A DNA stretch of 44,773 bases, from assembly GCA_903885585.1 (NCBI GenBank), contig CAISJH010000014.1, forward strand, positions 1-44,773, read 5' to 3'. Made by a program: the position numbers and the translations under genes. Positions 6,525-40,396 of the stretch are shown here, piece after piece. The notes below the pieces were generated by a model. That model searched no databases and had not been told where the DNA came from. It was given only the letters and a program-made list of their open reading frames with translations. Each line of letters opens with the position of its first letter. Position 1 is the stretch's first letter. Source of the stretch: an uncultured beta proteobacterium (lineage in GTDB: Bacteria > Pseudomonadota > Gammaproteobacteria > Burkholderiales > Burkholderiaceae_C).

Positions 6525-7517
6525 TCAAAGCAGCCGGAGCTGGTCGCCGGCGCAGGGGCGCAGGGCCGCGCTGGCTTTGCTAGCCCAGGCGGACATCGCG
6601 GCCGTGCGGCGCGCCATTGTGTTGGGCACACCCTCGGTACGTGCACTCACGCGCGCCGAGAAATCGAACGCCATACTATCGAAAGAAGCGACTGAATCGC
6701 TGGTCTTCAGCCGAGAAAGCGCAGCTCCCTTAACACCGAAGAGATGCAAACGGCTGCGGGGTGGCAGATGCGGCTCAAGAGCCGCCACCACCGCGAGGAT
6801 TCCCTCGCGCCGATCATGCAGAGGTCGGCGGCACATGGAGCCGACCCCGATCAGCGTTGGCTGGGGCTGAAGCCAAGGCGTCCACCGACTCCACATCTCA
6901 AGTGTCATTTCCAGGCTGTGCCTGTAGTCGAAGACCGTGCGCCCCTGAAGGACTGGCACCGGCGCGGGCAGAAGCCGCGCGATTTCAGCGCAAGACCAGC
7001 CCTCAGTCGCCAACGCCTGGTGCCAGGCATGTAAGCGCCGCAGCAGGCCCTCAAGCAGTGTCGCGGTGGCCTCGACGCGGTACGTCACCTCCGCTGGACT
7101 GCTGCAGATCTCGGGCTCACAACAGAGGTCCGGAGCTGAGAACCAGGCCCGAGGAACCTTGGCCACAAGACCGATGTAATCGTCGAAAGTCCAGGGAAAG
7201 ATCGACGCGATCCCCGATGTAGGGCCCTCACGCTTCCACCTGGACATGGCCGTGAAGCCGGCGGAGTCGAGGGCAAAGTCGACCTCCCAGAGGTCGCTAT
7301 GGTCCGGGACATCGAAGGCACGCTTGCTTGAGTTCCAGAAGGCGCTTGCCGAGACCATGCTGGGCGTGGTCGTGTTGAAAGCGTGAAACGCCAGACGGCT
7401 GGAGCGGTGTGGCACTCCGAGCCGCATGACCTGGGAGGACAGAGGGGCTGAATTCGTTAGGCCGACTGGCAGACCAGGACCATCAAGGTCCAGGAGGGGG
7501 ACGGGAGCGATGGGCAT
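6525..7517 (-). CDS. DpdA-like tRNA-guanine transglycosylase family protein
   Basis: A 330-residue protein. Residues 81-90 (FALDSAGFTA) match the Asp-Ser-Gly/Ala-x-Phe base-binding motif of TGT enzymes (D84). GVGSMCRR (224-231) and LHLFGVKG (257-264) match the paired motifs of the DpdA branch. FDSMAFDFSAR (279-289) places D280 where TGT has its nucleophilic aspartate. TGT enzymes exchange guanine in nucleic acid for a 7-deazaguanine, in tRNA for Tgt and in DNA for DpdA (established). Start at 7517: AGGAG lies 8 nt upstream. An ATG at 7667 would run through the terminator of the upstream gene. It is preceded by a DndC-like gene on the same strand. Whether its substrate is DNA or RNA cannot be read from the sequence. 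No queC, queD, queE or folE genes are in the window, so a precursor would come from the chromosome or by salvage. Confidence 0.75.
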   Translation of the reverse strand: MPIAPVPLLDLDGPGLPVGLTNSAPLSSQVMRLGVPHRSSRLAFHAFNTTTPSMVSASAFWNSSKRAFDVPDHSDLWEVDFALDSAGFTAMSRWKREGPTSGIASIFPWTFDDYIGLVAKVPRAWFSAPDLCCEPEICSSPAEVTYRVEATATLLEGLLRRLHAWHQALATEGWSCAEIARLLPAPVPVLQGRTVFDYRHSLEMTLEMWSRWTPWLQPQPTLIGVGSMCRRPLHDRREGILAVVAALEPHLPPRSRLHLFGVKGAALSRLKTSDSVASFDSMAFDFSARVSARTEGVPNTMARRTAAMSAWASKASAALRPCAGDQLRLL

Positions 7518-7640
7518 CGCGAAAAACTCCTGTGTGAAGAAAGCAGGCGCCGGGATGGCGCCAATACGCTTGCCCGGGGCTGTGCGTTGCATCGACGCTG
7601 AAAGTGCCTCCCAGCGCGGAGCGTGGGTGCTGTGGTCGGC

Positions 7641-7683
7641 ACAAAAAAACTGCGCCCCGAGCCACATGAGTGGCGCGGGGCGC
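7641..7683 (-). terminator. Terminator behind the DndC-like gene
   Basis: The outer stem GCGCCCCG / CGGGGCGC (7652-7659, 7676-7683) encloses an inner GCCAC-ATGA-GTGGC hairpin. On the minus strand a run of seven T follows (7643-7649). It separates the DndC-like gene from the DpdA-like gene, so the latter needs read-through or its own promoter within about 120 bp. Confidence 0.8.
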
Positions 7684-7703
7684 TGGGGGTGGAAAACAGA
7701 CCG

Positions 7704-9467
7704 CTAGGCAGCCAGGAGATCGAGCTGGCAACCTTCCGAAGACGCGCGGTGCGCCCACGCAGCCCTGGCGCTTGCCGGCAGGCTTGAGAAGGGTACGCTC
7801 TGAGCGATTGCCGCTGTGTGAGGCGCATCCAGCGCCAGGCCCCGCCGCATCTTCCAGCGAGTCCTGCGCGCCATGTGGTCGAGATACTCCTGGTGGGAGT
7901 GATCAAGGGTGGGTGTTCCGAGGCCCAAGTACCACTGCCAGCCAGAAAGCTGACCCTCAGGATGGGTGCGCCACTCGTGGTGCTTGGCAACGAGCTCAGG
8001 CAGCATCTCCTCGGCCAAGAAGACCGCAACTTCCATGTCGACATCGAGGCCCTTTTGCGTGGCCAAGCGCCATGCCGGCTGGCCGCTCTTCAGCGTGACC
8101 AGCTCGGGCTGGCAAGGGGCGCCTTCGGTGAGGGCCTCGAACCAAGCGGAGCGCAGGCCAGACCAGGCATCGGATTCCCATTCAGGGCCCACCTCGATGA
8201 ACCGGGTGGGAGGCAGCGTGGTAGCCCGCACTGAGCTCGGCGGCGGCAAAGCGAAGCGCTGCCCCTTTCGGATCGCGTCGAGATCGGCCCAGATCTGGAA
8301 TGGCGCCGCTATGCCTTGGAGACCCTGAACGAAGTCAAGAGCTACCAGGATGTCCAGCGGCATGATCTCGAAGGCCGGTGCCCTGCCCTGCTGCTGAGCA
8401 AGCTGACGCTCGTCCTCGTCGATCGACATGAATGCCCGCGTCAGTGCCCTGATGAAGGGATAGGCGAAGACGTCCGGCTCCACGGCCACATAACCAGCAC
8501 GCGAGGTCCGACCCACCCAGTGGCGCAGACTCAGATCCATGCGTGCGGCACTGAGTACGGCATTTGCTTCCAGCAAGGGTCGCAAGTTGCCGTACGCGGC
8601 GTCGTCGTAGTCGACCATGGCCTGCAGCGACCGATCCACGGCCTGCTGACAAGTCCAGCAGCCGGTACGTGCGCCGCAGCCTCCCTTTGCCTTGGCACCA
8701 TTGAGGATGGACTCAGCGACGACTGCGCAGCTCGTTCCGGCGCTGTGTGCGTAAATCCGCAGAACGTCGGCCGCATCCGTGAAGGCATCTACGCCGGCCA
8801 ACCCTCCGAGATACTCGAACACATCGTCCGAGGACCATCTGGCCAATGGAGAAAGCACGAGTTCGCCATTAGCGTTCTCGACGGGCACGTCGTGTCGCTC
8901 ACCTCGTGCCAGCATGTTTGCCTTTCGGCGGGCACTCTCGTCGAGCCGGGTCCCGATGATGGTCACCGCAGGCTTGCCGCCAGCCGCAAGCCGAGACAGA
9001 AGGTCGCGTCTGGCCCGACGGCCTGGCGTCACCTTGAGGTCGACCGAGCAGTCGGTATTGCCTGCGGCATAGCTTGGCAAGCCACGGCCGCCGAGCACCT
9101 TGAGCTGAAAAGTGCTCAGAAGGCCTGGCTCGGCCACGTGTGTCACCAGCTGTATGCCATGGCGCCTCGCGAAAGCGCGCATCTTTTCCATTTCACTGCC
9201 CACCAGTGAGCGAATTTTGGGGTTCTCGACCCGCGTGTCGTTGTTGAGAACAACGATACGCTGGACGTTCGTCCCCTTGGCGACGAGATCGCGAGCGGCC
9301 TGGAGAGCCAGGGCCACACAAGCAGTGGAATCCTTACCCGCGCTGTAGGCCACGACCACTGGGTGGCCGGCAGCAAGAACACGTGTAATTGCCAAAAGGG
9401 CTTCGGCTTGCAGCCTAGCCAGGCTGGGACGAAGTTCGATAGTGGATTCAAAGAGGTCCAGGTTCAT
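7704..9467 (-). CDS. DndC-like PAPS-reductase-family ATP-pyrophosphatase
   Basis: A 587-residue protein. The PP-loop is YSAGKDST at residues 41-48 (SGGKDS-type, alpha-ATP pyrophosphatase). C140 lies in GNTDCSVDLKVTP, GTRLDES is at 172-178, and CGARTGCWTC (C264, C270, C273) completes a four-cysteine set like the [4Fe-4S]-binding cysteines of DndC, the phosphorothioation enzyme (family knowledge). The C-terminal half (about 290-587) extends well beyond a simple PAPS reductase and is not recognised. No dndB, dndD, dndE, dndA or sulfate-assimilation genes are nearby, so it is not a standard dnd locus or an assimilatory CysH. Its neighbour is a DpdA-like transglycosylase, suggesting a joint role in nucleic-acid modification (inference). 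Start is ATG at 9467. Confidence 0.8.
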   Translation of the reverse strand: MNLDLFESTIELRPSLARLQAEALLAITRVLAAGHPVVVAYSAGKDSTACVALALQAARDLVAKGTNVQRIVVLNNDTRVENPKIRSLVGSEMEKMRAFARRHGIQLVTHVAEPGLLSTFQLKVLGGRGLPSYAAGNTDCSVDLKVTPGRRARRDLLSRLAAGGKPAVTIIGTRLDESARRKANMLARGERHDVPVENANGELVLSPLARWSSDDVFEYLGGLAGVDAFTDAADVLRIYAHSAGTSCAVVAESILNGAKAKGGCGARTGCWTCQQAVDRSLQAMVDYDDAAYGNLRPLLEANAVLSAARMDLSLRHWVGRTSRAGYVAVEPDVFAYPFIRALTRAFMSIDEDERQLAQQQGRAPAFEIMPLDILVALDFVQGLQGIAAPFQIWADLDAIRKGQRFALPPPSSVRATTLPPTRFIEVGPEWESDAWSGLRSAWFEALTEGAPCQPELVTLKSGQPAWRLATQKGLDVDMEVAVFLAEEMLPELVAKHHEWRTHPEGQLSGWQWYLGLGTPTLDHSHQEYLDHMARRTRWKMRRGLALDAPHTAAIAQSVPFSSLPASARAAWAHRASSEGCQLDLLAA

Positions 9468-9653
9468 GATGGTTTCCCAAGTGGGCCGACAAGTTGTCGG
9501 CGAGGTTGTGTGAAAGGTGCTCTAAGAGCCCTGTCGTGTGCCCAGTAATGGGATGCGTTAGTTGGTAACGACGGCGCGAAACGGCCTGGTTGCTGCAGGC
9601 AAGCAGGTCCAGGCCCAAGCCTCAAGGTCGCAGCGCGTCGTGGCCCAAGCGAA

Positions 9654-9685
9654 GAAGCCCCGGACCAGGTTGGTCGCGGGGCTTC
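9654..9685 (-). terminator. Terminator of the 10589-9700 gene pair
   Basis: The outer stem GAAGCCCCG / CGGGGCTTC (9654-9662, 9677-9685) encloses the inner stem GACCA / TGGTC. It lies 15 bp past the stop at 9700 on the minus strand. It has the same two-tier design as the terminators at 6478 and 7652. Confidence 0.65.
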
Positions 9686-9699
9686 AGGGGGGTGGTGTT

Positions 9700-9930
9700 T
9701 CAGCAGTACTGAGCGTCTACTGCGTCCAGGAAGATGTCCTTCCAGTCGAGGTTGGCCCAGGCATACCTGCCGTGAACATCGAGACCGAGAAGCCGGTCAA
9801 CCCAGTAGCGCCAGCCGTCGGCCTCGCAGAGGTGTCGATCGCAGGCCCGTTCGAAGGCCGCTACAGAGACCGTGTCTGAGATGAAGTGACGCTCGCCTTT
9901 TGGAAGCACGAGGTAGAAGCCGGGCTTCAT
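9700..9930 (-). CDS. Small hypothetical protein coupled to the upstream gene
   Basis: A 76-residue protein starting at an ATGA overlap with the gene ending at 9927, so it is almost certainly co-translated with it. It is acidic and aromatic-rich (YWVDRLLGLD, YAWANLDWKD). I recognise no family. Confidence 0.6.
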   Translation of the reverse strand: MKPGFYLVLPKGERHFISDTVSVAAFERACDRHLCEADGWRYWVDRLLGLDVHGRYAWANLDWKDIFLDAVDAQYC

Positions 9931-10589
9931 GGAGCAATCGCCGCCGGTGAAGGCTCAAGCCATCTGTTCCCAGAACCGAGAAACTCGAAACCGTTGTCTT
10001 CAAGAAGCTCGTCGACAGCTTCGTCAGACTGTTGCCACTCATAGTCACTTTCAAGGAGACGGTAGGCCCACCGCGCGAACGCTCGCAGGCACTCACGTAC
10101 TTCCTCGGCGTCAGCAGCAGAAGGCTCATTGACTTGGTTGAGGCCGACGCAAATCTCCATCGACTGCTCGTGAACGTAGCGGCCTCGTTGGGTGACCGCT
10201 GCTGTGAGCTTGTAGAAATTTCGCCGCTGAACTTCTTGCAGACGCTTGGCGATGCTGCTCAGTCGGTCGTCGTTCGGCGCATAGGCCTGCAAATCGCGCA
10301 GGGAGCCAAGCCGGTAGCTGTAAGTGCCGGTGAAACTCGCGCCATCGCCCTGGCTGGAGAAACCAGAGTAGTAGAAGCAAGGCTCCGAGCGGACCCGCCC
10401 GCCAGGAAGCGCGAATGTGCGCTCCGACAGTTGGATGCCCAGGAGGTCGGCGCAGTGGAAGATATCGTCAAGGGTGGCGTCGTCGTCAAACGACTCCGGG
10501 CCATTACGCCACCAGGTGCGAGCCTTCTCCTTCGCGGAGTCGGTCTCAAGTTCGGAGAACGAATAGAGCTTGACCTCGATGGTCTTCAT
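9927..10589 (-). CDS. Phage/plasmid-type hypothetical protein (KLYSFSEL family)
   Basis: A 220-residue protein. The N-terminus MKTIEVKLYSFSEL followed by SAKEKARTWW is typical of a family common in phages and plasmids whose members start with a short beta strand and then a helix ending in W/Y. AAAGGA precedes the start by about 12 nt. An earlier ATG at 10916 would run through the terminator at 10751 and is rejected. The rest is acidic with several tryptophans and no catalytic motif. The function of the family is not known to me. Confidence 0.7.
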   Translation of the reverse strand: MKTIEVKLYSFSELETDSAKEKARTWWRNGPESFDDDATLDDIFHCADLLGIQLSERTFALPGGRVRSEPCFYYSGFSSQGDGASFTGTYSYRLGSLRDLQAYAPNDDRLSSIAKRLQEVQRRNFYKLTAAVTQRGRYVHEQSMEICVGLNQVNEPSAADAEEVRECLRAFARWAYRLLESDYEWQQSDEAVDELLEDNGFEFLGSGNRWLEPSPAAIAP

Positions 10590-10740
10590 AGGGATGAGTC
10601 CTTTCAGGAAGGCTGCGCGTGGTTCGTGCAGCCAGAGGGGGGGGAACGGCCGGGCGGCCCAGTCGTGTGCCTGTAAGGCGTTGCACGGCCGCTGAACAGC
10701 TCGCGTGGCGGAAGCAGCCAACGCCCGGGCATATCGTTGA

Positions 10741-10777
10741 AAAAAGTAAGCCCCGCTCATCTGGTGATGGCGGGGCG
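10741..10777 (-). terminator. Terminator of the zinc-ribbon gene
   Basis: The outer stem GCCCCGC / GCGGGGC (10751-10757, 10771-10777) has an inner CATC / GATG pairing and is followed on the minus strand by a T run (10741-10746). It lies 24 bp past the stop at 10801. Confidence 0.75.
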
Positions 10778-10800
10778 CGTGGCGGGTTCTGCGGGTTGAG

Positions 10801-11160
10801 CTACGTGCGAATAGCCGAGCTGTCTGCCGCATCGGGCACCCAAACCCAGGCCTGCACCCAGGTTCCGCCCTCACCTTCCGAGATGCGGGCGTCGTCGTCG
10901 ACCTCGATGTCGTCATCCGATGGCATGGCGTACCGAGCGCGCGCGCGCTCGATCAACTCAGCGCTAGCCCGGCTCTCAGTCGACAGCGCATGCACCAGGC
11001 AGCCGCACTCGGGGCACTCGCCGGCTGGAAGCGATTCGCCAGGGCTTACGCGTTGGTACAGGTCCTTGGCGGGCACAAGAATATCGGGGTCGGGGGTTTC
11101 GAATGCGCAGTTGCCACAGGCATAGAGCTGCTGGGCGCAATCGGTGTTGGCGGATGCCAT
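10801..11160 (-). CDS. Small zinc-ribbon protein
   Basis: A 119-residue protein with two CxxC pairs (CGNC near residue 16, CPEC near residue 47) separated by about 30 residues, forming a probable zinc ribbon, then an acidic C-terminal part (SDDDIEVDDDA) ending with a W-rich strand. AAGGAG is placed 7 nt before the ATG at 11160. Proteins of this plan are common accessory genes on betaproteobacterial plasmids. The role is unknown; binding to nucleic acid or protein is plausible. Confidence 0.7.
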   Translation of the reverse strand: MASANTDCAQQLYACGNCAFETPDPDILVPAKDLYQRVSPGESLPAGECPECGCLVHALSTESRASAELIERARARYAMPSDDDIEVDDDARISEGEGGTWVQAWVWVPDAADSSAIRT

Positions 11161-11272
11161 TGATGGTCTCCTTGCAGTGGCCGGACATGAAGACGTCCTG
11201 CAAGCCTTGCGCAAGGAGAGGCGTTGCGCGCTCGACGAAAGCGCAGCGCAGAGGGTCGAGATGTGCGGTGGC

Positions 11273-11704
11273 TTAGGCGCCGACGTCGTGCCGCAGCGCG
11301 ACTTCTGCAATCGAATCGGCCACCAGTGCCTCCAGTACCTGGGCATCGATGTCTGCAAGGCGCTTGAAATAGAGGCAGGCCTTGCCCATCCGGAACTTGC
11401 CGAGCGCCGGCAGTAGCGCCTGTTGCTTCGGACCGTCGCAAGCCAAATAGACCACCAGGTCGCGACCTCTAACCGAAAAACCAGCCAGACAAGACTCGCC
11501 GGTCCGGCCGCTCGCGTACGTGTAGCGATAGCTCCCAAAGCCGACGATGCTCGGACCCCACATCTTGGGGTCATGCTTCGTAACCCTACTGAGCAAGGCA
11601 ATGAGTGCCGTGCAGTCCGTCAGTTGCTCTGGCGACGCCTTGGCGGAAAGATACGCTTCGACACTAGCGGAGGTGGCCTTCGTCTTGGTTTCAGCCATGC
11701 TCAT
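11273..11704 (-). CDS. DUF1801 (YdhG/iron-chaperone-like) protein
   Basis: A 143-residue protein with the family's hallmarks: MWGPSIVGFGSYRY, a YASGR loop, GFSVRG, then LGKFRMGKACLYFKRLADID and VLEALV. DUF1801 proteins are small alpha/beta proteins related to the frataxin-like fold. The precise role is unsettled. The start is either ATG at 11704 or at 11698; both overlap the end of the upstream membrane gene (stop at 11691), indicating coupling. Confidence 0.8.
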   Translation of the reverse strand: MSMAETKTKATSASVEAYLSAKASPEQLTDCTALIALLSRVTKHDPKMWGPSIVGFGSYRYTYASGRTGESCLAGFSVRGRDLVVYLACDGPKQQALLPALGKFRMGKACLYFKRLADIDAQVLEALVADSIAEVALRHDVGA

Positions 11705-11903
11705 CGGTGTGTTCTTGGCTGAACGAGCGGTCAACCTGCCAGGCGCCGAGAACGAGCATCGCAACCGCAAAGATCAACCAGAGGGCCAAGTCACTGACCT
11801 GCTTGCCAGGCCATTGCACAGCGGCAATGACGCCGCAGAAGACCCCCAAGAGCAAATAGCCAAAGCCCAAGGTCCGGCGACGCGTGGAAGACGGCTTGTT
11901 CAA
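11691..11903 (-). CDS. Small two-helix membrane protein
   Basis: A 70-residue protein with two predicted transmembrane helices (residues about 13-30, LGFGYLLLGVFCGVIAA, and 38-55, ALWLIFAVAMLVLGA) and basic N-terminus (RRRT), so both ends are probably cytoplasmic. It overlaps the DUF1801 gene by 8-14 bp. No family recognised. Confidence 0.6.
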   Translation of the reverse strand: MNKPSSTRRRTLGFGYLLLGVFCGVIAAVQWPGKQVSDLALWLIFAVAMLVLGAWQVDRSFSQEHTDEHG

Positions 11904-11948
11904 TTGAAGCTCCTCGTGATGTGTGTCATTCTGCAGGCGTGGCTTGGG

Positions 11949-12401
11949 CTAGGAATCCGAAGGGGCCAAAAAACCAAATCTGGCCTTGAAAGCCGCAAAT
12001 ATGGCTTCGCGTAATGGCTCAAGCAAGGGGCGCTGCTCGGGCGGAGTCACCAGAGCGACCTGGTAGTAGGCGGCCAAAACCGGATCGAACCACGAGGCCC
12101 ATTGAATGTCGCGTGCAGCGAGCGCAGCGCTCCCGGGCTCCATCCGTTGGCGGTCCTTTCTCCAGAGTGTGCCAAGCTCCCTGATCACGATCGCATCGGC
12201 CCAGTCAGGGATCGCGCGCCCGCCATTGGCCCAGTCAGAGATGCGCCCGCGGTATAGCGTGAGCTCCCGACCTCGCTTGCTCGCCCGGCTTTCGAACCAG
12301 TGACACATTTCGGCGAAGCTGAGTTGGAGTTCTGTGCGCAGCAGTCTGAGCCGCCGGGCTGCGAGGTCCTCGGGTAGACCCGGTTGGTCAGGCAATTCCA
12401 T
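11949..12401 (-). CDS. Hypothetical protein with possible HTH N-terminus
   Basis: A 150-residue protein. Residues about 15-75 (RRLRLLRTELQLSFAEMC, LYRGRISDWANGGRAIP) have the helix pattern and 'I-S-x-W-x-x-G-x-R-x-I-P' ending reminiscent of Xre-type DNA-binding domains with an enlarged second loop. The C-terminal half is helical. CGGAGCT precedes the start at 12401. It could be a regulator; moderate-to-low certainty on that role. Confidence 0.6.
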   Translation of the reverse strand: MELPDQPGLPEDLAARRLRLLRTELQLSFAEMCHWFESRASKRGRELTLYRGRISDWANGGRAIPDWADAIVIRELGTLWRKDRQRMEPGSAALAARDIQWASWFDPVLAAYYQVALVTPPEQRPLLEPLREAIFAAFKARFGFLAPSDS

Positions 12402-17480: not shown

Positions 17481-19304
17481 TCAGCCCGCCAAGGCTGGCT
17501 CTTGTGCCGCAGCAGCCGGTATCGCTGCGGGCGACTGAACCACTGCCGCGTCGGCCAAACGAGCCGTGCCGTCCATTTGGCGAAGCACCTTCATCGAGGT
17601 CTTGCGAAGTGCGACTGCTTCACGCGACCAGTTGTCGAACAAAGCATCCACAAGCCTTCCAAAAGTGGGATGGGAAACCCCTGCGTGGAAGGCCTCGAAG
17701 AATGCTGCGTCGTGTCCGTGGCCGACACCGCTGTCGAAGTCGTGGGCCTGCTCGTGGACAAGCAGCGCTGCCATCCGACTGGCCCACCCGATGCCTGCGG
17801 ACGGCCCGTCGGCACCGCGCAGGAACTTGGCGTTGACGAAGATGTTGGACCTGCCATCCGTGTAGGCATCGGCTGTCTCAGAAGCCATGGCGCGAATACG
17901 CCTGGAGCCGCCTTCCAAGCCCGCGCCGAGGCGCAAGCACATGGCTACGAGGTAGGAGGCCGACTCGATCGCCCTAAGGGCCGCGGCTGCATCCTTTGGA
18001 AGCCGAGCCTGTGACAGCACTTCGTGGTCAGAGTTCAGCGTCGCGGCCAGCGCGTCATAGGAACTGCGAGAGACAAGCCCCTGAACATCGATGATGTCGC
18101 GACGGAGGGCTTCGAGTGACCAGTACATCGCGTCGCGGGCGCGGCCCTTAGCCTCGGCGGCTAGGTTGTGCAAGAAAGCCAAGACATCAACCAACGGACG
18201 GCCGAACCGGTCGAACGTGCATGGATCCAGGACCACAGCAAGTTTGGCCTGCTGGAGTCTGTCTGCCATCAGGCTCTTTCGTGAGGGAGCCACCACGATG
18301 GGCAGGCGGGACGAGCCGAGTTGCTTCAGGCTCAGGTGCTTGCCTGCCACGTCGGTGAACAGTGGCAAGCCGCGCAGTTCATCAACCTGCACGCTCGTGG
18401 TCAAGGCCGTCGTCAGCACTTGGCGAGCCTGGAACTCGCGCCAAGCCTCGGTCCTCTTGGCACCCTTGGTTCGACCGCAATGCTCGGCAGCCAGCCGCGT
18501 CAGAAGTGGTCGGATGGTTTTCCATTCGGGGCACTGGCTGCGCAGCACATCGTTGCGCGCGAAGTTGACGGCCAATTGCCGACGACTGACGACGACCCCG
18601 CCAACGCCAAATTCGCTGGCAGGGTAGTGGGCGACCAAGACACCAAGGTTGAAAAGCGACAACCGGCGCGAGTCGTCAACACGCACATAGGCGCTGTCGT
18701 CGGTATGCGTCCATCGCTCGGACTCGGGAAGGCGATTGATCACCTTGCCGTTGAGCGACAGCGGGATCGGAAGGTACTGGCACTGTTCTGCTAGGGAACG
18801 GGCAATCGACAGGAGGTCGCTTGGATCAAGGCGCTCGTACAGGTCGCCATGGATGGTGCAGCCCACCACAGGCTCACACCCTGTGATGAGGTCGTAGTCG
18901 AGGCCTCGACCTTGGATGTCGACCCGCATCTCAAAGGTGCCCGTGCGCCAGCGATTCCGAGCGAAGGCGAACGCTTGGCCGCGGCCCATTCTGAAGCGAC
19001 CGAATACAGCGTCGCTCTCAACGTGAGGAGTGCCGAATGTCTCGAAGAAGGCATCGATCTCGTCGCGACCGGCAAAACCTCGGCCGTTGTCCTTCACGTA
19101 AAAGCAGTTTCGATCGAGGGTGATCTCGACGCTCGATGCGCCCGCGTCGACGCTGTTCATCACGAGTTCGGTCAGCGCTTTTTGCAGAGAGCCGGCTTGG
19201 CTCTTGATGACGTCGAAGAGCAACGCAGGGTGCATTCGGAACCTGCGGGCCTCTGCCAGGGCACTGGAGGGCGAAGCAATCGGAGCGGAAGAAGGGTGTG
19301 GCAT
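17481..19304 (-). CDS. GHKL ATPase fused to HExxH metallopeptidase-like tail
   Basis: A 607-residue protein. The N-terminus has all three GHKL (HSP90/MutL/gyrase) ATP-binding motifs: ELVMNSVDAG (46-55, N box), KDNGRGF (71-77, G1), and GRFRMGRGQAFAF (102-114, G2). The ATPase-transducer part appears to run to about residue 330. The C-terminal part has LLVHEQAHDF, an HExxH zinc site at 517-521, followed 8 residues later by HGHDAAFFEAF (529-539). That resembles the third-ligand helix of SprT/WLM-like metallopeptidases ('HGxxF'). A GHKL ATPase with a built-in protease motif is unusual. The start at 19304 is ATG before MPHPSS; an earlier in-frame ATG at 19391 is possible but precedes low-complexity sequence. 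It is first of the probable operon with the WGR-ligase. Confidence 0.75.
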   Translation of the reverse strand: MPHPSSAPIASPSSALAEARRFRMHPALLFDVIKSQAGSLQKALTELVMNSVDAGASSVEITLDRNCFYVKDNGRGFAGRDEIDAFFETFGTPHVESDAVFGRFRMGRGQAFAFARNRWRTGTFEMRVDIQGRGLDYDLITGCEPVVGCTIHGDLYERLDPSDLLSIARSLAEQCQYLPIPLSLNGKVINRLPESERWTHTDDSAYVRVDDSRRLSLFNLGVLVAHYPASEFGVGGVVVSRRQLAVNFARNDVLRSQCPEWKTIRPLLTRLAAEHCGRTKGAKRTEAWREFQARQVLTTALTTSVQVDELRGLPLFTDVAGKHLSLKQLGSSRLPIVVAPSRKSLMADRLQQAKLAVVLDPCTFDRFGRPLVDVLAFLHNLAAEAKGRARDAMYWSLEALRRDIIDVQGLVSRSSYDALAATLNSDHEVLSQARLPKDAAAALRAIESASYLVAMCLRLGAGLEGGSRRIRAMASETADAYTDGRSNIFVNAKFLRGADGPSAGIGWASRMAALLVHEQAHDFDSGVGHGHDAAFFEAFHAGVSHPTFGRLVDALFDNWSREAVALRKTSMKVLRQMDGTARLADAAVVQSPAAIPAAAAQEPALAG

Positions 19305-19547
19305 AGCGCTTTCGGGGGTGGATGAATATCCAGTATGTACCCCGCGCGTGGGGTACGTCAAGAGAAAAGTTTGCAGGGCGTGACAGTGCATATGGAAGCG
19401 TCACAACCGGGTGGACTGAGACTGCCAGTGGCGTGTCACTGGGGCTGCCGTCGCAATCGAGCAAGCACAGCGGGCTTTCGAAGCGCTACGACACACACAC
19501 AGGTGCGCGGTGACATCGAACGCGCGAAGCAGCGGCACGCAAGAAGA

Positions 19548-19582
19548 AGCCCCTCCTGAACGGGTACCGAACAGGAGGGGCT
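19548..19582 (-). terminator. Terminator-like hairpin upstream of the GHKL gene
   Basis: AGCCCCTCCTG (19548-19558) pairs with CAGGAGGGGCT (19572-19582), loop-closing GTACC. On the minus strand it is followed by CTTCTTCTT. No minus-strand gene lies to its right before 21730, so it may act as a leader attenuator for the GHKL-ligase transcript or be a remnant. Confidence 0.5.
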
Positions 19583-19621
19583 GAGGAACCTTCTTGCCAA
19601 AGGCATGGCGTTGCGCCGCCA

Positions 19622-19637
19622 GATAAGAGTTCTTATC
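19622..19637. promoter_or_regulatory. Inverted repeat, possible operator
   Basis: GATAAGA-GT-TCTTATC is a perfect 7-bp inverted repeat 49 bp before the plus-strand start at 19686, in an AT-rich stretch (ATATCATATG) that could hold the promoter. The binding protein is unknown. Confidence 0.4.
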
Positions 19638-19685
19638 AAGTGGATGCGCAATATCATATGAACACATCGTGAAGGAGCCCAGGGA

Positions 19686-20009
19686 ATGAGCCAGCATCGC
19701 TATGTCGCGCACTTGCGCGAACAGGTCGTTTGCGTTTGTGTAGGCTGGGACCGAAACACGCGGGGCTTTCACCTGTCCATCACCGACTTGGACGATGAGT
19801 TGGTCCACCTGGCCGAAGACCAAGCGGATCTTGCAGCTGTCACACACGAGGCACAGCGCTTGGGTGTGCCGATGCCGACTGCCTTGGGGGCTGCGCTGAG
19901 CGACGATGCGACGCTGAACGCATGCAACACCGTGGCCTACTATGGCCACGAAGGACAGCAGGTCAGTCAGCAGGCGTACGTCGCGCTGCTTCGCACGGCG
20001 GCCTGTTAG
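19686..20009 (+). CDS. Hypothetical protein upstream of HerA-like ATPase
   Basis: A 107-residue protein starting MSQHRYVAHL, with GAAGGAG 8-12 nt before the ATG. The N-terminus alternates strand-like segments (VVCVCVGWDR, GFHLSITDLDDELV) and is followed by helices. It ends 2 bp before the likely GTG start of the ATPase and is probably translationally coupled. It is not recognised; it may be a partner of the ATPase. Confidence 0.6.
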   Translation: MSQHRYVAHLREQVVCVCVGWDRNTRGFHLSITDLDDELVHLAEDQADLAAVTHEAQRLGVPMPTALGAALSDDATLNACNTVAYYGHEGQQVSQQAYVALLRTAAC

Positions 20010-20011
20010 CC

Positions 20012-21349
20012 GTGCACCGAATTGGCCTAGACGAGCGGGCTTGGGAGCGCACGCGAAGACGGACGGACGTCATCTGGGATCCGAGCGCCCTCGTAAACCC
20101 GCACGTCCTCATCTGCGGCGCGAGCGGCTCAGGGAAAAGCTTCCAGGCTATGCGTTTGTTGGAGTCTGCGGCGGCGGCCGGGATCGAGGTGGACGCGTTC
20201 GACCTGCACAACGAGCTCAATGAGTGCTCAGGCGCGAGCGCAAACATCTACAGCGAAGCAACCAGGCTCGGCACCAATCCACTGGTTCTGAATTCGAACC
20301 CGCACACCGGTGGTGTCCGCCGTCAGGTCGAATTTGTTGTCGATCTGCTCAACGCCACGTCGCGAAAGCTGGGCCCGCGCCAGACCAGTGCCCTCAAGGC
20401 CTTGCTCTACGAGACCTACCTGGCGCGCGACATCGTCCCCGAGCGGCCCGAGACGTGGATCCGCAACGAGCTGACTGAAGACGAGTACGACCAGCTGATG
20501 GCCCAGAAAGCCTTCAATGCCCTGCGTGGGGCGTACCCGATTCTGCGGGACGTGATCCGGACCTGTGAGCGAAGGATACGGTCCTTGACGCTGTGCGCCG
20601 ACAACCAGGCCGTGATGGCGCTCGAACGGGTTGAAAAGGCCGCTGGAAAGCTGACGGCCCTACGAGCAAAGAAGATCGCCCAAGACGAGCTCGAGGCCGC
20701 TGAGGAGAAGCTCGCGATTGCCAAGGATCAAGCGATCGAGGCGTACTCTGCGTTCGTACTAGCCATCCAGAATGGGCAGGAGTGGGGCGAGCAGATTCGG
20801 TATCAAAGCGCCGACACCCTGCGCGCTCTGCACGAGCGTTTGTCTGAGTTGAACAGCATCGGCATCTTCCGGGCAGCTCCACCGGTCTGGGCCAGCCACC
20901 TGCGTGTCCACCAGATCGGAGCCCTGCGCGACGACGAGCGCCGACTCCTCGTCTACACCCACTGCGCGGCCATCCTTCGGGCCTGCATGGATGCTGGACA
21001 GTCGACCAGGCTGCGGCGGCTGATTTTTCTAGATGAAGGTCATGCACTCCTCGACGACGATGGGCACTCGCCTCTGAACAAGATTGTGAAGGAGGGACGC
21101 AAGTTCGGGCTGGGGCTGGCAATCGGAAGCCAATCCCCGTCGCATTTCTCTGCCGACGTGCTTGTCAACACGGCCACCGTGATCGTCACGGGCCTCGAGG
21201 CAGCCGACAGGGAGTTCGCGGCTCGAAAACTCAATGCGCCGCCGGAACTGCTCAAGGCGGTCAAGCCCAAAGCAGTTGTGGCTGTGAAGCTCAAGCGCAA
21301 CGGCGAGTCCGAGGATGGGTTCAGGCTGGTGAATGTCTCAGCGCAGTGA
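20012..21349 (+). CDS. HerA/VirB4-like (DUF87-type) P-loop ATPase
   Basis: With GTG at 20012 the protein has 445 residues. Walker A is GASGSGKS (36-43), preceded by NPHVLICG; Walker B is RLIFLDEGH (336-344, D341-E342); the sensor Gln lies in IGSQSP (Q374). This order (VLIxGxxGSGKS, then FxDEAH-like, then SQxP) is that of the HerA-FtsK/VirB4/TraC superfamily, hexameric DNA or protein pumps (established). A long helical insertion of about 200 residues separates Walker A and B, including LERVEKAAGKLTALRAKKI. The ATG at 19922 lies inside the preceding gene and reads as non-coding sequence, so 20012 is preferred. No NurA, Sir2 or conjugation genes are adjacent, so the role is unclear. Confidence 0.75.
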   Translation: MHRIGLDERAWERTRRRTDVIWDPSALVNPHVLICGASGSGKSFQAMRLLESAAAAGIEVDAFDLHNELNECSGASANIYSEATRLGTNPLVLNSNPHTGGVRRQVEFVVDLLNATSRKLGPRQTSALKALLYETYLARDIVPERPETWIRNELTEDEYDQLMAQKAFNALRGAYPILRDVIRTCERRIRSLTLCADNQAVMALERVEKAAGKLTALRAKKIAQDELEAAEEKLAIAKDQAIEAYSAFVLAIQNGQEWGEQIRYQSADTLRALHERLSELNSIGIFRAAPPVWASHLRVHQIGALRDDERRLLVYTHCAAILRACMDAGQSTRLRRLIFLDEGHALLDDDGHSPLNKIVKEGRKFGLGLAIGSQSPSHFSADVLVNTATVIVTGLEAADREFAARKLNAPPELLKAVKPKAVVAVKLKRNGESEDGFRLVNVSAQ

Positions 21350-34242: not shown

Positions 34243-35271
34243 ATGGACTTGCAACCAGTAATAGCCCTCGATATCGGGCACTCTGCGTGTAAGGTTATCG
34301 CCTGTGCCAATGGACGGCGCGAGAGACTGCTTTTTCCATCAGTCGTCACCTCTGCCGTGGAGATTGCTGAAGACTCTGCTGCCGCCGACGCGCTTCGTGA
34401 GACCATCGAAGTGGGCGGCCGGAGGTTCTTCTTCGGCGATACGGCCGTCGTTCAGGGTGTCGCGGAGGCAGAAAGCGGTATGGCCGAGAACTGGATCTCG
34501 CATCCCCACCATCAGGTCCTGCTGCTCGGGGCGCTGCGGAAGGTCAAGCAAGCTTTTCAGGATCTCGACCCGTCAAAGGCCATCCTGGTGCTTGGCCTGC
34601 CCGCCCAGTACTACTCGGCGCAGCGCAACACCCTGCTTTCCTCAATGCGCAACCTTGTGCCTGGCGCGCAAGTGGTCGTTCTGCCGCAGCCGCTCGCACC
34701 GTACCTGGCGATTCAATATGCAATCGACGGGCGCGAGGACCGCGCTCGACCAGTGGCCGCGGAGAGTTGGGCAGTGCTCGAGGTTGGGCACTTCACTCTC
34801 GACGTTTGTCTGATCGCTGAAAGCAAGTGGGTTGAGCGCGCCAAGGGCAGTTGCGCTGGAGCTTACCGGCTGGTGGAGGCGCTGGCCGCAAAGCTGAGCC
34901 AACGCATCGGCAGCTCGGTTTCGATGCTCGAGGCTCAACGGGCGCTTGCTTCGGGGTATGTCCGTGTTTTCGGCCGTAAGGAAGACATCGCTGAGGACCT
35001 TGCGGCAGCACGGCGAGAGTACGCCGAGGAGGTCCTAGAGTTCGCTGCGATGAAGCTGGATCGAGACGCCCGTTCGCTAGACGGGATCTTGGTGGCTGGA
35101 GGCGGCGCCCAACTCATCTACGACCGCGTACGAGACCGGTGGCCGAATGCCACCCTCGCAGCACATGGGCGATTCGACGTCGCAGAGGGCTATGCGCGCA
35201 GTGGTCTTGCGCTGGCTCGCGATAACCATGTGCGTCTGGCACGCAAAGCCACCGCAGGGGCCAGCGCGTGA
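34243..35271 (+). CDS. parM: ParM/StbA-family actin-like partition ATPase
   Basis: A 342-residue actin-fold protein. Phosphate-1 loop VIALDIGHSACKV (residues 6-18), phosphate-2-like loop AVLEVGHFTLDV around residue 180 (E-V-G-H instead of the more usual D-x-G-x-x-T), and the adenosine motif ILVAGGGAQLI near 285. ParM filaments push plasmid copies apart in the cytoplasm (established). GGAGAGG precedes the ATG at 34243. The 13-bp repeats lie 60 bp upstream, and the gene overlaps the ParR-like gene by 4 bp, completing a ParMRC-type locus. It may instead be one of the related Alp-type actins. Confidence 0.85.
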   Translation: MDLQPVIALDIGHSACKVIACANGRRERLLFPSVVTSAVEIAEDSAAADALRETIEVGGRRFFFGDTAVVQGVAEAESGMAENWISHPHHQVLLLGALRKVKQAFQDLDPSKAILVLGLPAQYYSAQRNTLLSSMRNLVPGAQVVVLPQPLAPYLAIQYAIDGREDRARPVAAESWAVLEVGHFTLDVCLIAESKWVERAKGSCAGAYRLVEALAAKLSQRIGSSVSMLEAQRALASGYVRVFGRKEDIAEDLAAARREYAEEVLEFAAMKLDRDARSLDGILVAGGGAQLIYDRVRDRWPNATLAAHGRFDVAEGYARSGLALARDNHVRLARKATAGASA

Positions 35272-35657
35272 AAGCCTGGACGAGGCCGGGCCTTGGCGAG
35301 ATGCCGCAACGGCAACGCCACATGGTGCAGATCGACGCGAAGCGCTACCCAGAGCTGGCGGGACTGCTCTGGACAGCAGGCTTTGGGCAGAAATCTCAGC
35401 TCATGCTCGACCTGCTTGAAGCGGGACGTCGCCACCTGCTAAAGGAACAGCACAAGCGCAGTGACCGAGGTTCGCAAGGTGCCCACGGCGATCTGGAGTC
35501 TGGCGGACAACGCCAGCGCAGCAGAACGATCGCGGCTACAACTCCTCCAGCGACCACCCTCCCCTCGCCTCCCGCCACAGACACGTCAGTGACAGCAGTG
35601 CCGGCGCCGGATAGCGATCCGCCATCCCTGGGTGTGCTAACCGCCTTCATCGACTGA
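35268..35657 (+). CDS. parR: ParR/StbB-like partition adaptor
   Basis: A 129-residue protein starting at GTG in a GTGA overlap with parM. Residues about 18-60 (HMVQIDAKRYPELAGLLWTA, GQKSQLMLDLLEAGRRHL) fit a ribbon-helix-helix with one strand followed by two helices, as in ParR. The C-terminal half is a disordered T/P/S-rich tail ending LGVLTAFID, which could be the segment that contacts the ParM filament (inference). Sequence similarity to known ParR is weak, so the call rests on order, overlap and the repeats upstream. Confidence 0.65.
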   Translation: MKAWTRPGLGEMPQRQRHMVQIDAKRYPELAGLLWTAGFGQKSQLMLDLLEAGRRHLLKEQHKRSDRGSQGAHGDLESGGQRQRSRTIAATTPPATTLPSPPATDTSVTAVPAPDSDPPSLGVLTAFID

Positions 35658-35833
35658 ATCGCCACCGACCCACAAGGCCAAGTGCCACCGCTCGGCATCC
35701 GGCACGGTGGCCAAGCCTGGGAAGAGCAATCTCTCAGCCCCAACGTGAGCATCTTCGCCATCGCCTGGAGCGAGACGAGGCTGCCGAAGCACAAAACCCT
35801 CGCTGTTAGGTCGAAGCCGACAGTCCCCTGCGC

Positions 35834-37426
35834 TCAACTTTGGGGCTGCTGGTCGAGGCGCCACGCTAACCAGGCCTCAAAGCTTCGATCCTCGGGAAGC
35901 GGCAGCAGCTCGTCGAGCATCTCAGGACGCTCCCGCCTCATCCAACCCCGGAGGATAGCCAGCGCTGCGGCGTTCTTCGGCGTCCATCCGTGCGAGAGAA
36001 ACGGCTGCGTAAGGCGCGACTCATCTGCACCAGAGAATGCCTCCAGAATCTCCTCGCGCCGATCCTCGGGAAGGCCGAAGAATTCCTCAGCGAAGCGCGC
36101 CGATCCGTGGCGCGCGAACTCTTCTTTCAACCGCTCTTGGCGTGCGGCCGACGCGCGCTGCGCCTCTTGCGAGCGTGCCTCCGCCTCGATCTTCGCGTGG
36201 TCCAGATCGTCGCCTTTACCAGTCGAGACGTTGGCCAGGATGCCGTTGAAGTAAGCCTTCTTGGACGAGATGTGCCGACCCTGGGCCCTCATGCGGTCTT
36301 CGGCTTGCTTGAGCTTGACCAGGGTTTCGGCAACTTCTTCAAAAGAGCGGGCTTGGCTGAGATCGCCAATCTCTGCCGGGGCGAAGCCTAAGGATTCAAG
36401 CGCATTGACCACATCGCCCGGCCAGGTCATCGGAATGCCCAAGCTCATTGATCTCTTTGGGACAAACGCGAATTGCAGCTTGGAGACGCGCGTACCCGAC
36501 TTGAGTTCCTTGAGCTCTAGGGTGTAACCCAGAGCGGGGATGTCGTTGACGCGCCGTATGGCGTCGATGAGGTGCCGGCGCTTGAAGTCGGCGTATCGCA
36601 CGACGCGCTTGCCAAGCTTAGGATCGTCTTCGACATAGCCCGAATCGCCCAGGAGCAGTTCGATCCACGTTGCCGTCGGCAGCGCTGCGGTCACCTTCTT
36701 GTCGGTGTTCACGTACCGCCAAGCGTTCTGATACAGCGCATAGCTCGCGGCCGTGCCCAGGCCTCGCATGACTTGCAGCGAAAGCGTTGCCCAGTTGCTG
36801 GGTTCGAGCACGATTTGGAGAATCTCAGGGTCGAGCGAGAACCGGATGAGACCGCGCTTGATGCCTTTGCCATACCCGAGCGACGACAGGAAGTGGCTCT
36901 TCATCTCCCACTCTGTTTGCGCGTCCTCGCCAACGATGTTCCAGCGCAAGGTCATCTCGAACAGAGAGTCGAGCTCATCGTAGACACGCTGGAAGTTCTT
37001 GCCTGGGATGCCTGCGAGCCTGACCAGGTCTGTGATCCGGGTCTCAAAAACTGGCGCGAGCCGTTCGCTCTTGACTCGGGCCAAAGCTTCCTTGCCTCGT
37101 TTGCGGAAGTCGATCTGTGCGATGAGGATGCAGGCGTCGAGCAATCGACGGTTATTGAGGCTCTGGGCGTGCTCGGCCCTGGTCGGCGTAGCGTGGATCG
37201 CAGCGACTCCCTTGCGCATGTTGCGCAGGGCCTCGGGGATGATCAGATCCTCGGTGGGGAACAGCGGAATCTGGCTCTCGTCACGCAAGCGCATGTCGAA
37301 CCCGCTCTCAGCGATGGCGCGCGAATTCGCCGTGTCGCCTGCGGGCTCAGCATCTATGGCATCGGGATCTGGTTCCTGCACATGGTGGATCGTAAGCGAT
37401 GGCAAAGCATGAATCAAAGCTGCCAT
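35834..37426 (-). CDS. Replication initiator 1 (Rep_3/RepB-type)
   Basis: A 530-residue protein. Residues about 90-330 have the double winged-helix pattern of iteron-type plasmid initiators: RRLLDACILIAQIDFRKRGK, ITDLVRLAGIPGKNFQRVYDE, LFEMTLRWNIVG, and YALYQNAWRYVN. The C-terminal part (about 380-530) is helical (YFNGILANVSTG, ERLKEEFARHG) and W-rich. Initiators bind iterons upstream of their gene and open the origin (family knowledge). No good Shine-Dalgarno sits before the ATG at 37426; an internal ATG near residue 45 is an alternative. The repeat-rich stretch 37430-37897 is the likely origin. Confidence 0.8.
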   Translation of the reverse strand: MAALIHALPSLTIHHVQEPDPDAIDAEPAGDTANSRAIAESGFDMRLRDESQIPLFPTEDLIIPEALRNMRKGVAAIHATPTRAEHAQSLNNRRLLDACILIAQIDFRKRGKEALARVKSERLAPVFETRITDLVRLAGIPGKNFQRVYDELDSLFEMTLRWNIVGEDAQTEWEMKSHFLSSLGYGKGIKRGLIRFSLDPEILQIVLEPSNWATLSLQVMRGLGTAASYALYQNAWRYVNTDKKVTAALPTATWIELLLGDSGYVEDDPKLGKRVVRYADFKRRHLIDAIRRVNDIPALGYTLELKELKSGTRVSKLQFAFVPKRSMSLGIPMTWPGDVVNALESLGFAPAEIGDLSQARSFEEVAETLVKLKQAEDRMRAQGRHISSKKAYFNGILANVSTGKGDDLDHAKIEAEARSQEAQRASAARQERLKEEFARHGSARFAEEFFGLPEDRREEILEAFSGADESRLTQPFLSHGWTPKNAAALAILRGWMRRERPEMLDELLPLPEDRSFEAWLAWRLDQQPQS

Positions 37427-37429
37427 CGA

Positions 37430-37897
37430 TCAGACGCGAGGCGTCGAAGTATGCAGAACTGCCACTTTCCACAAGCAGGGACGCCAGGGGGAGTATGCGA
37501 CCTTGCGTCCTTCTCCCCAGAAGCGCCATCGATAGTCTGCCAAAGTGCCATCGCTTTTCGCATAAGCCGTTGATTCAAAACGACTTTTGGAACATGGAAC
37601 ACAGGGGATGTTCTGTAACAAGAGGGACTCAACGGTATTGCAGGCCGCCAGATTCATTGGCCCAACGGCGTAAGCCTCGCCTTCTGGGGTCGTTCGTAGA
37701 TGATTTCATCATCAGAAAACCCAAAGACAGCAGCCCCCGAACAGCCAGGCTTGGCAGAAAAAGGCATGGCGCTTTTGCATACTTTTAGGCGTATCCAGCG
37801 ATATGCGCAGCCCATCTTCGACGGTTTATGGCGCTTCTGCATACTGCGCGGTATTGCTTGAGCGTATCCACACCCGCCTTAAGCTAGACTTTGCGCA
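37430..37897. other. Repeat-rich intergenic region, candidate origin 1
   Basis: It carries ATGGCGCTTTTGCATAC (37766-37782) and ATGGCGCTTCTGCATAC (37828-37844), 62 bp apart, each followed by GCGTATCCA. The pieces GTATGCAGAA (37449) and CAGAAGCGCCAT (37518) are inverted parts of the same unit. GTATCCACA at 37864 is one base off a DnaA box. These fit iterons or operators between Rep 1 and the RHH-like gene. Confidence 0.55.
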
Positions 37898-38377
37898 ATG
37901 TCCGGTGCTAGCGAAGACCAGATCGATGCGATCGTCGGCGCCGCGCTCAAAGCCATGGTGGAGAGCGGCGTCGGACACGCGCGCGTCGGTGCTTTTGCTT
38001 CGAGCTTCCGAGACGAGGTGGCGGGGATACTAGGAGCCAAGCAAGCCAAGCCAGCCGAGCCGGACTTGCTGCAGATGGTGACACAGGCGGTCCGCCTGGC
38101 AATGGCTGACTCCGCGCCGGGTGCGAGCGCCCGCAAGTCCCAGACAGCCGAGCGCATCCATGTCTACGTGGGCGGCAAGCGCACTTCGGTGACGCTCCTG
38201 GCAGAGGGCCTTCGCAAGCTTGACGAGGCCGCAGGCGGTCGCAAGGCGGCCAAGGCCATCATTCAAGAGCTGGCCGCGAGCGCTCCGGCCGACGCTGATA
38301 ACCGCAGCGCCTGGATCCAAGAGCGCATGCTGGCCTTTGCTGGCACCAAGACCGACGGCAGGTCCGCTCGCCACTGA
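37898..38377 (+). CDS. Plasmid-maintenance-type small protein, possibly RHH DNA-binding
   Basis: A 159-residue protein. The C-terminal part (ERIHVYVGGKRTSVTLLAEG, LRKLDEAAGGRKAAKAII) has a 'strand-GKRTSV-strand-helix' layout seen in small DNA-binding regulators near plasmid rep genes. The N-terminal half is helical (IDAIVGAALKAMVESGVGHA). It is divergent from rep 1 across the repeat region, so it may control copy number or the origin (inference). Confidence 0.6.
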   Translation: MSGASEDQIDAIVGAALKAMVESGVGHARVGAFASSFRDEVAGILGAKQAKPAEPDLLQMVTQAVRLAMADSAPGASARKSQTAERIHVYVGGKRTSVTLLAEGLRKLDEAAGGRKAAKAIIQELAASAPADADNRSAWIQERMLAFAGTKTDGRSARH

Positions 38378-38451
38378 GCGTCATGAACGCGAGGGGGTGA
38401 GCCGCCTGTGACGGTCTCGCTCGGCATGGCCTGAGGCTACTCTTCTAGACA

Positions 38452-38469
38452 GTGGCCGAGTTTGGCCAC
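38452..38469. terminator. Hairpin between convergent genes
   Basis: GTGGCC-GAGTTT-GGCCAC is a perfect 6-bp inverted repeat between the plus-strand gene ending at 38377 and parB ending at 38650. No T run follows, so terminator function is uncertain. Confidence 0.3.
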
Positions 38470-38649
38470 CTGATCTCTTGGCGGTTCTCGCCTCGCGCTT
38501 GACGCTGCCAGACACCGCAGCGTGAACTGATCCCCCAAAGGGGTGGCCAACGCCCTGCGGCTCTTTAACCTTTCCCGCAGCCAACTCCAAGCTCCACTCG
38601 CCCGTCGATGCAATGCAGTCGCATCGAGGATCTGGGAGCATGTAAGCGT

Positions 38650-39609: not shown

Positions 39610-39614
39610 GAGCT

Positions 39615-40277
39615 CTACTCCTGATTCGCGAGCTGGACGATCTCGTCATAAAGGCTCTGCATCTCCCGGATTGCTTTCGGGGAGCGGTCGGCGCCTTTGA
39701 GCTCGTGCAGCGCCCTGCCCGTCTTGCCAGTGGCCTTCCAAGCCTCTCGATGGGCAATGTGAGACTGGCAGACGGAGATGCCCTCACCGCGCAGAAAGTC
39801 GCGCAATTCGACGGTGGCTTTGGCGTTCTCTTTAGGCGACACCCGCGTCAGGACCACGTGCGCGGGAATACGGCCACTCTGGTGACGGCCGTCCAGCCCA
39901 CGAAGAGCCTCGAACACCGAGAGGGTCGATTCCATCTCCTGCTGGTCGTTTCCGCAAGGCACCAGCACCAGATCGGAGAGCTGGGCACACTCCAGCAATG
40001 TGCGGTAACTCTGCGCCCCGATATCGACGACGACCAGCGAGAACTTGCTGGCCAGGTTAGCGAGTTCCCGGGCGGGGTTTGCCGGCAAGGCAAGGACTGG
40101 GATGGACGGAGAGACGCCCTCCTCATTGCGAATCCTCGACCAAGACATCGCGGAGCCTTGCTTGTCAGTGTCGAGAAGAATGACATCGATTCCCTGAAAT
40201 GCTGCGAGAGCTGCGATGTGAGTGGCAAGCCGCGTTTTAGAGACGCCGCCCTTTTCTGCCCCGATCGTGATGACCAT
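39615..40277 (-). CDS. parA: ParA partition ATPase (system 1, type Ib-like)
   Basis: A 220-residue ParA/Soj-type Walker protein without an N-terminal HTH. The deviant Walker A is EKGGVSKTR (8-16, signature lysine K9, then K14). Walker A' is VILLDTDKQGSA (32-43), and the DIGAQ switch region (VVVDIGAQS) follows near residue 84. ParA moves plasmids over the nucleoid (established). Serine replaces the usual glycine in KGGVGKT, which is common in this small subgroup. It forms an operon with parB 5 bp downstream. Confidence 0.9.
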   Translation of the reverse strand: MVITIGAEKGGVSKTRLATHIAALAAFQGIDVILLDTDKQGSAMSWSRIRNEEGVSPSIPVLALPANPARELANLASKFSLVVVDIGAQSYRTLLECAQLSDLVLVPCGNDQQEMESTLSVFEALRGLDGRHQSGRIPAHVVLTRVSPKENAKATVELRDFLRGEGISVCQSHIAHREAWKATGKTGRALHELKGADRSPKAIREMQSLYDEIVQLANQE

Positions 40278-40330
40278 CGGCCGTCCTTTCCATGGTGCTG
40301 CACGTAACTCAAAGTACGTCCGAATGCCGA

Positions 40331-40371: not shown

Positions 40372-40396
40372 CAAACTCTGCACAAAGCACGCGCCT

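Follow-up and report, generated by a model that had tools for sequence, protein, structure and literature searches.

Two neighbouring plasmid genes, encoding a DpdA-type DNA guanine transglycosylase and a protein resembling DndC and the phosphoadenosine phosphosulfate (PAPS) reductases, belong to families whose pairing is recurrent but facultative, and adjacency of this kind is unlikely to have arisen by chance. The pair lies on the minus strand of contig CAISJH010000014.1 (positions 1-44,773; assembly GCA_903885585.1) from an uncultured beta proteobacterium; these 44,773 nt, the whole stretch of DNA that was analysed, are called the window here. The favoured reading, to which a probability of about one in two may be given, is that these are separate but functionally related plasmid DNA-modification genes in loose association, most likely serving anti-restriction. 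Modification of DNA with 7-deazaguanines and with phosphorothioates is known from phages and from chromosomal defence systems. In the present case, plasmids repeatedly bring together an enzyme of each kind, and the rest of either system is not nearby. The recurrent pairing suggests a simpler plasmid anti-restriction chemistry, a little-studied way to disguise plasmid DNA, and the DndC-like family is widespread on plasmids. The pair and its parts are:

9467-7704, minus strand: DndC/PAPS-reductase-like protein P0001, 587 aa (the long type), from its open reading frame (ORF), profile matches, PP-loop and four cysteines
9324..9347, minus strand: PP-loop YSAGKDST of P0001, residues 41-48, from translation and alignment
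9048..9050, minus strand: C140 of P0001, putative Fe-S ligand, from alignment (14/14)
8649..8678, minus strand: C264, C270 and C273 of P0001 (C-x5-C-W-x-C), putative Fe-S ligands, from translation and alignment
7683-7643, minus strand: predicted intrinsic terminator, a 13-pair hairpin followed by T7, from folding and a shuffle test
7517-6525, minus strand: predicted DpdA-type DNA guanine transglycosylase P0002, 330 aa, from its ORF, PF23859, phrog_1279 and predicted fold
7266..7268, minus strand: D84 of the DSAGF motif of P0002, invariant in 44/44 aligned sequences
6678..6680, minus strand: D280 of the FDS motif of P0002, invariant in 44/44 aligned sequences

The recurrence is seen in a species-genome collection scanned with a DpdA alignment, from which the best 80 of 187 relatives were kept. 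The close loci number 47 (the window, seven plasmid loci and loci L044-L082); eight with a DpdA that shares 90% identity or more with that of another locus were dropped, which leaves 39 non-redundant loci, and the count of neighbours within 600 bp is nine either way. Gaps were taken from stop-to-stop frames, and some flanks are shortened by contig ends. A gene of the PAPS-reductase type (PAPS-type) lies within 10 kb of DpdA in 16 of the 39 loci (17 genes). Six of the nine adjacent cases carry the long DndC-like type, upstream and on the same strand (the window, L045, in which the gene is in pieces, L057, L061, L071 and L077), and three carry a short type of about 390 aa, upstream in L053 and L004 and downstream in L016. 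Under random placement in the available flanks, 1.42 of the 17 genes would be expected within 600 bp, and the observed nine did not come up once in 100,000 runs. Excluding the window gives a count of 8 of 16 (reached in 1 of 100,000 runs), and without the window and three of the four Paraburkholderia cases it is 5 of 13 (P 0.0013). An earlier note on this DNA had described the two genes as a two-gene module and had looked to conserved co-occurrence across genomes for its confirmation; adjacency does recur, in two PAPS-type subfamilies, and it is the fixed character of the module that fails, as set out below.

Named plasmids provide a second test. Twenty records carry a DpdA of at least 45% identity, and removal of one duplicate leaves 19, at least 15 of which also carry a PAPS-type gene. 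The two genes lie within 600 bp of each other on three of the 19 (0.088 expected, P 4.5e-5), within 1,500 bp on four (0.21 expected, P 4e-5) and within 6,000 bp on seven (0.86 expected, 0 of 50,000 runs). Seven plasmids are common to this set and the 39-locus set, so the two tests are not independent. The annotated pair of P. sprentiae pl2WSM5005 has a gap of 70 bp; P. terrae pPT365, which is among the three plasmids with the genes within 600 bp, seems to carry interrupted copies of both. When 12 DpdA plasmid records were searched in full, nine gave one or more PF01507 matches.

It may be that an accessory region of large plasmids simply gathers up both genes, and that their adjacency is functionally meaningless. 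This is unlikely given the excess in both placement tests and the result of an unbiased clustering of neighbour ORFs over 42 loci (the 39 and three from viral contigs), where, once the clusters formed by DpdA and by ORFs that overlap it are set aside, two PAPS-type clusters rank first, with nine loci each. The next cluster is SbcC-like and comprises eight loci of one Paraburkholderia lineage. Passive neighbourhood does accord with the fact that most copies of either gene are unpaired, and with the DpdA tree, on which long-type adjacency is somewhat clustered: four changes are required to account for the six long-type cases, against a shuffled mean of 5.8 (13 of 500 shuffles were as low), and well-supported branches force two or more of the four. 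The window itself groups with L002 (support 87/91), apart from the Paraburkholderia cases. All 24 PAPS-type genes on 15 plasmids share the strand of DpdA, but this is weak evidence, because most genes of such plasmids are co-oriented (104 of 122 annotated features in two stretches used as a control).

Co-occurrence at the level of genomes was assessed in 399 genomes of the same order, the window's own genome (G000) included. DpdA occurs in four (E <= 1e-10), and P0001 has a match in 21 (E <= 1e-15), of which 18 span about 250-330 residues with E values of 3e-17 to 2e-26. Long matches below 1e-30 are confined to G000, G049 and G158, each of which also has DpdA; in G387, the remaining DpdA genome, the contig with DpdA has a match to PF01507 on the same strand at a distance of about 5.4 kb. 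With the own genome removed, the overlap is two between sets of three and two in 398 genomes (P 3.8e-5), a figure that is inflated because both genes ride on plasmids. Among the genomes behind L044-L082 (38 of 39; L046 left out), 14 have a P0001 match at 1e-15 and 13 below 1e-30. The two genome sets are not independent, since the matches in G158 are identical to those in the genome behind L050, and the two are probably one genome.

The assignment of P0002 to the DpdA family is based on motifs, profiles and fold. The motifs DSAGF, GVGSMCRR, LHLFGVKG and FDS, reported earlier at 6525-7517 with no strand given, are present on the minus strand, and the protein matches PF23859 (DpdA) at 46.7 bits (cut-off 27), its sole Pfam match, as well as phrog_1279. 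It scores far below the bacterial DpdA equivalog NF041059 (11.8 versus 200 bits). The predicted model is of high confidence (pLDDT 93.6) and has a TGT-like fold; its best Foldseek match is the bacterial DpdA structure 7UI4, and VIA-align puts TGT first. By sequence, the DpdA alignment profile matched no PDB chain at E 1. Of the two invariant aspartates, D84 is presumably the counterpart of the TGT general base and D280 that of the TGT nucleophile. The frame is open farther upstream, with an ATG at 7667, but the ATG at 7517 is preferred because it is preceded by an AGGAG ribosome-binding site and agrees with the starts of relatives. PF23859, the TGT-like fold and the two invariant aspartates are shared with phage DpdA (a short singleton, phrog_1279) and with bacterial DpdA (7UI4), a likeness that makes use of a host precursor plausible for P0002. 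Unlike them, P0002 is plasmid-borne and distant from NF041059, and the window ORFs tested include neither a dpd cluster nor genes for preQ0.

P0001 has the motifs of a DndC-type enzyme, as had been claimed for 7704-9467, again with the strand (minus) left unsaid. In 14 aligned sequences, S42, G44, K45, D46 and S47 of the PP-loop are invariant, as are C140, C270 and C273; C264 is conserved in 13. The four cysteines match the DndC order and are taken here to be DndC-type Fe-S ligands, which makes a [4Fe-4S] cluster likely. Profile searches upheld the earlier family assignments: besides the DpdA match of P0002, P0001 passes PF01507 PAPS_reduct (29.3 bits, cut-off 22.5; no other Pfam match at E 0.1) and matches the PADLOC DndC model at 116.6 bits, but it falls short of the DndC equivalog TIGR03183 (118.8 bits against a cut-off of 290.4). 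Its identity as DndC proper was rejected on that score. The alignment to the DndC model covers residues 34-317 and leaves the last 270 residues unaligned. Nor does P0001 appear to be a QueC or Gat-QueC protein, as there is no PF06508 match and its C-x5-C-W-x-C motif differs from the zinc motif of QueC, given as C-x8-CxxCxxC in the part of PMC13329287 consulted.

The predicted model of P0001 is poor (mean pLDDT 52.5, from 8 sequences, with low confidence beyond about residue 230). In a structure comparison, residues 11-239 have an ATP-pyrophosphatase fold. No DndC structure is among the 50 structural matches listed for it, and by sequence no PDB chain was matched at E 1. The same PP-loop fold is found in a tRNA thiolase, and together with the TGT-like fold of P0002 this could point to modification of tRNA or other RNA by both enzymes, perhaps as a plasmid answer to tRNA-cleaving defences. 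Such a role is quite improbable. The sole Pfam match of P0002 is to DpdA, a DNA enzyme family, and its top Foldseek match is 7UI4, even though VIA-align ranks TGT first; the host already has a TGT; and several other plasmids have DNA-modification genes in the vicinity of DpdA, including those for a DNA methylase and a thymidylate synthase, a setting that also suits the favoured reading.

The customary partners of both enzymes are missing from the ORFs searched, in line with the earlier note. No DndA, DndB, DndD or DndE, no other Dpd protein and no preQ0 gene was found among 22 window ORFs (Pfam) or 10 neighbours of the pair (PADLOC), and membership in a Dpd cluster was rejected. In DndC, the sulfurtransferase of DNA phosphorothioation, the PP-loop and four cysteines are like those of P0001; P0001 departs from it in its sub-equivalog score, its unaligned C-terminal region and this lack of Dnd neighbours. 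It is very improbable that P0001 makes phosphorothioate DNA with Dnd or Ssp partners supplied by the host or encoded elsewhere, DpdA being unrelated to it. The TIGR03183 match and the four-cysteine pattern would suit such a role, but the score is below the equivalog cut-off, the window ORFs hold no partners, and the own genome, a draft of 862 contigs with 6.3% contamination in which absences are not final, gave no match to DndD (nine control genomes matched, none over the cut-off) or to DndE (the control was likewise empty).

The two genes are separated by 186 bp, with the DndC-like gene upstream. The terminator that the earlier note placed between them, and took as evidence against a simple operon, is well supported: the hairpin at 7683-7643 folds at -30.5 kcal/mol, shuffled sequences average -17.6 (z -4.74), and 0 of 200 shuffles were as low. 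A consensus terminator scan did not return this site, but gave two weaker ones on the minus strand, one at 7713-7699, where the DndC-like gene ends, and one at 7562-7546, between the two genes. A simple operon in the window was rejected on account of the intrinsic terminator, and the two genes are probably transcribed apart. No Rfam family reached its gathering score in the window, L057 or L077. In one Paraburkholderia clade, a stable hairpin without a T run occurs just before the DpdA start (near 9921 in L057, L061 and L071, near 5047 in L045 and near 9909 in L047); it is no mark of the pair, because it is common to paired and unpaired Paraburkholderia loci.

If the two are related plasmid DNA-modification genes, DpdA would replace DNA guanine by a 7-deazaguanine base, which is most likely preQ0 from the queuosine pathway of the host. 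With ATP and an Fe-S cluster, the DndC-like enzyme would activate an oxygen by adenylation and put another atom, probably sulfur, in its place; the substrate of this enzyme may be DNA or the base that DpdA inserts, resulting in a second or follow-on modification. Plasmid DNA marked in this way would then not be cut by host nucleases. The proposal is that plasmids repeatedly unite the two genes because their effects add up, and that neither strictly needs the other. The best precedent is the phage 9g pair of DpdA and Gat-QueC, likewise a DpdA and a PP-loop ATP-pyrophosphatase on a mobile element that draws on host preQ0. In the sections of PMC6884629 consulted, 9g DpdA alone yields little dPreQ0 in Escherichia coli DNA, made from the host precursor, and DpdA together with Gat-QueC yields abundant dG+; a second PP-loop enzyme could thus be useful to a lone DpdA. 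In contrast to the 9g pair as described there, the partner in the window is DndC-like, with a putative Fe-S cluster, rather than QueC, and has no Pfam glutaminase domain.

Several observations weigh against the favoured reading. The same sections of PMC6884629 report that dPreQ0 alone gave no protection from EcoRI, and the target could be RNA instead of DNA. The statistics assume random placement, and confinement of both genes to one shared accessory quarter of the plasmid would raise the expected counts about fourfold. No PAPS-type gene lies within 600 bp in 30 of the 39 close DpdA loci, some of whose flanks end at contig edges. Among 46 more distant DpdA loci (30 after removal of near-copies), none has an adjacent PAPS-type gene, the gene being 5-6 kb away in L085, L116 and L118, and the close DpdA loci on viral contigs (L124-L126) have none within 10 kb. 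The DndC-like family must also mostly work without this DpdA, since relatives of P0001 are on 2,326 of 72,556 plasmid records and relatives of P0002 on 83. In L045 and L049 the DpdA frame is open and the PAPS-type gene is in pieces, and in L061 it is the PAPS-type gene that is open and the DpdA frame that stops short by about 40 codons; sequencing error is possible in all three. The loci with no partner, the wide occurrence of the DndC-like family and the broken genes of L045 and L049 also speak against the fixed two-gene module of the earlier note.

A closer, joint pathway can be drawn by analogy, in which DpdA would insert a 7-deazaguanine and the DndC-like enzyme would modify that base, for example to a thioamide or thione, to give a sulfur-containing deazaguanine in DNA. 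This is possible but doubtful: most DpdA loci have no partner nearby, DpdA stays open beside the fragmented genes of L045 and L049 (if these are not sequencing errors), a terminator divides the genes in the window, and the likeness of P0001 is to DndC, a backbone-modifying enzyme, rather than to QueC. The combined sulfur and deazaguanine chemistry conceived in the earlier note is thus one candidate, and two independent anti-restriction modifications encoded in one plasmid region are another. Somewhat more doubtful is a hybrid pathway in which DpdA would place 7-deazaguanine in DNA and an Fe-S PP-loop enzyme would add sulfur on or beside it, the PAPS-reductase subfamilies being interchangeable finishers.

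The wide distribution of the DndC-like family can be described further. Of the 2,326 plasmid records with P0001 relatives, many from Escherichia, Salmonella and Klebsiella, 1,835 are predicted to be conjugative, and 232 have a relative covering at least 80% of the query. With the L077 relative as query, 2,059 of the 72,556 records match at E 1e-30, again many from these three genera. Among the matches listed, the relatives are mostly annotated as 'phosphoadenosine phosphosulfate reductase family protein'. No described function for the family came up in the literature searched, and a viral scan gave three weak loci only. No paper on DpdA with a DndC or PAPS-reductase partner on plasmids was among the matches listed in a search of titles and abstract openings that included few subscription papers; PMC11541004, an article about the leading regions of plasmids, does not use phosphoadenosine, deazaguanine, transglycosylase, PAPS or Dnd anywhere in its main text.

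Judged by its replication and segregation genes, the contig appears to belong to a plasmid. Pfam finds a Rep3-type initiator and a ParM-like actin, and a ParB_N match lies just below its cut-off (24.3 versus 26.3 bits). These are grouped at 34243-44478, where reading of the ORFs adds a candidate further initiator and two candidate ParA ATPases. QueC matches in the own genome lie on contigs other than that of the window, two of them clear and on separate contigs and a third weak, which makes supply of preQ0 by the host plausible; the genome also contains a housekeeping TGT, so that the plasmid DpdA is presumably not the tRNA enzyme. A second TGT-family match in this genome lies at G000:C143:20138-20701 (62.7 bits), and the second QueC match is at a contig edge, G000:C636:2-379 (125.3 bits); either could reflect contamination of the draft.

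Elsewhere, DpdA has other neighbours. In L016 (Azospira pAZI09), 6550-12176 encodes on one strand a DNA cytosine methyltransferase, a thymidylate synthase, a small ORF, DpdA and the short PAPS-reductase-type gene. In the Paraburkholderia lineage, an SbcC/Rad50-like protein is encoded upstream of DpdA in 10 loci (L045, L047, L051, L054, L057, L059, L061, L075, L080 and L081), with or without a DndC-like gene, and nine of these also have an SbcD-like gene. L213 (NZ_CP017565, 80000-100000) has an annotated SbcCD subunit C and a DNA repair exonuclease, preceded by a NADAR-family gene. The SbcC- and SbcD-like genes could supply the nuclease function of a restriction-type system. The idea that the SbcC-like neighbour acts in the manner of DndD was rejected, as the one member searched matches no DndD model and its matches to SMC and Rad50 models score far below the cut-offs. 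On two sphingomonad plasmids (L009, 6325-11014; L010, 3785-11032), a more distant DpdA has a gene of the cysteine synthase family at 3-5 kb and a thermonuclease gene nearby, and PF01507 was not found on either plasmid.

Recruitment of a TGT-type enzyme outside a Dpd cluster is also known from BREX-related capture (BRC; PMC12839542). In the part of that article consulted, BRC carries PglZ, DUF6079, DUF4007, a STAND-NTPase and HerA, of which the window ORFs tested include only a HerA-like ATPase, and no PAPS-type gene is mentioned there alongside the TGT. The HerA-like ATPase, about 10 kb from the gene pair, has a weak likeness to DndH (48.6 bits, PADLOC) and a likewise weak one to Mad8. It is divergent from a HATPase_c_3 protein gene on the minus strand, the two occupying 17481-21349, and the HATPase_c_3 family recurs near DpdA in L056, L060, L062 and L070.

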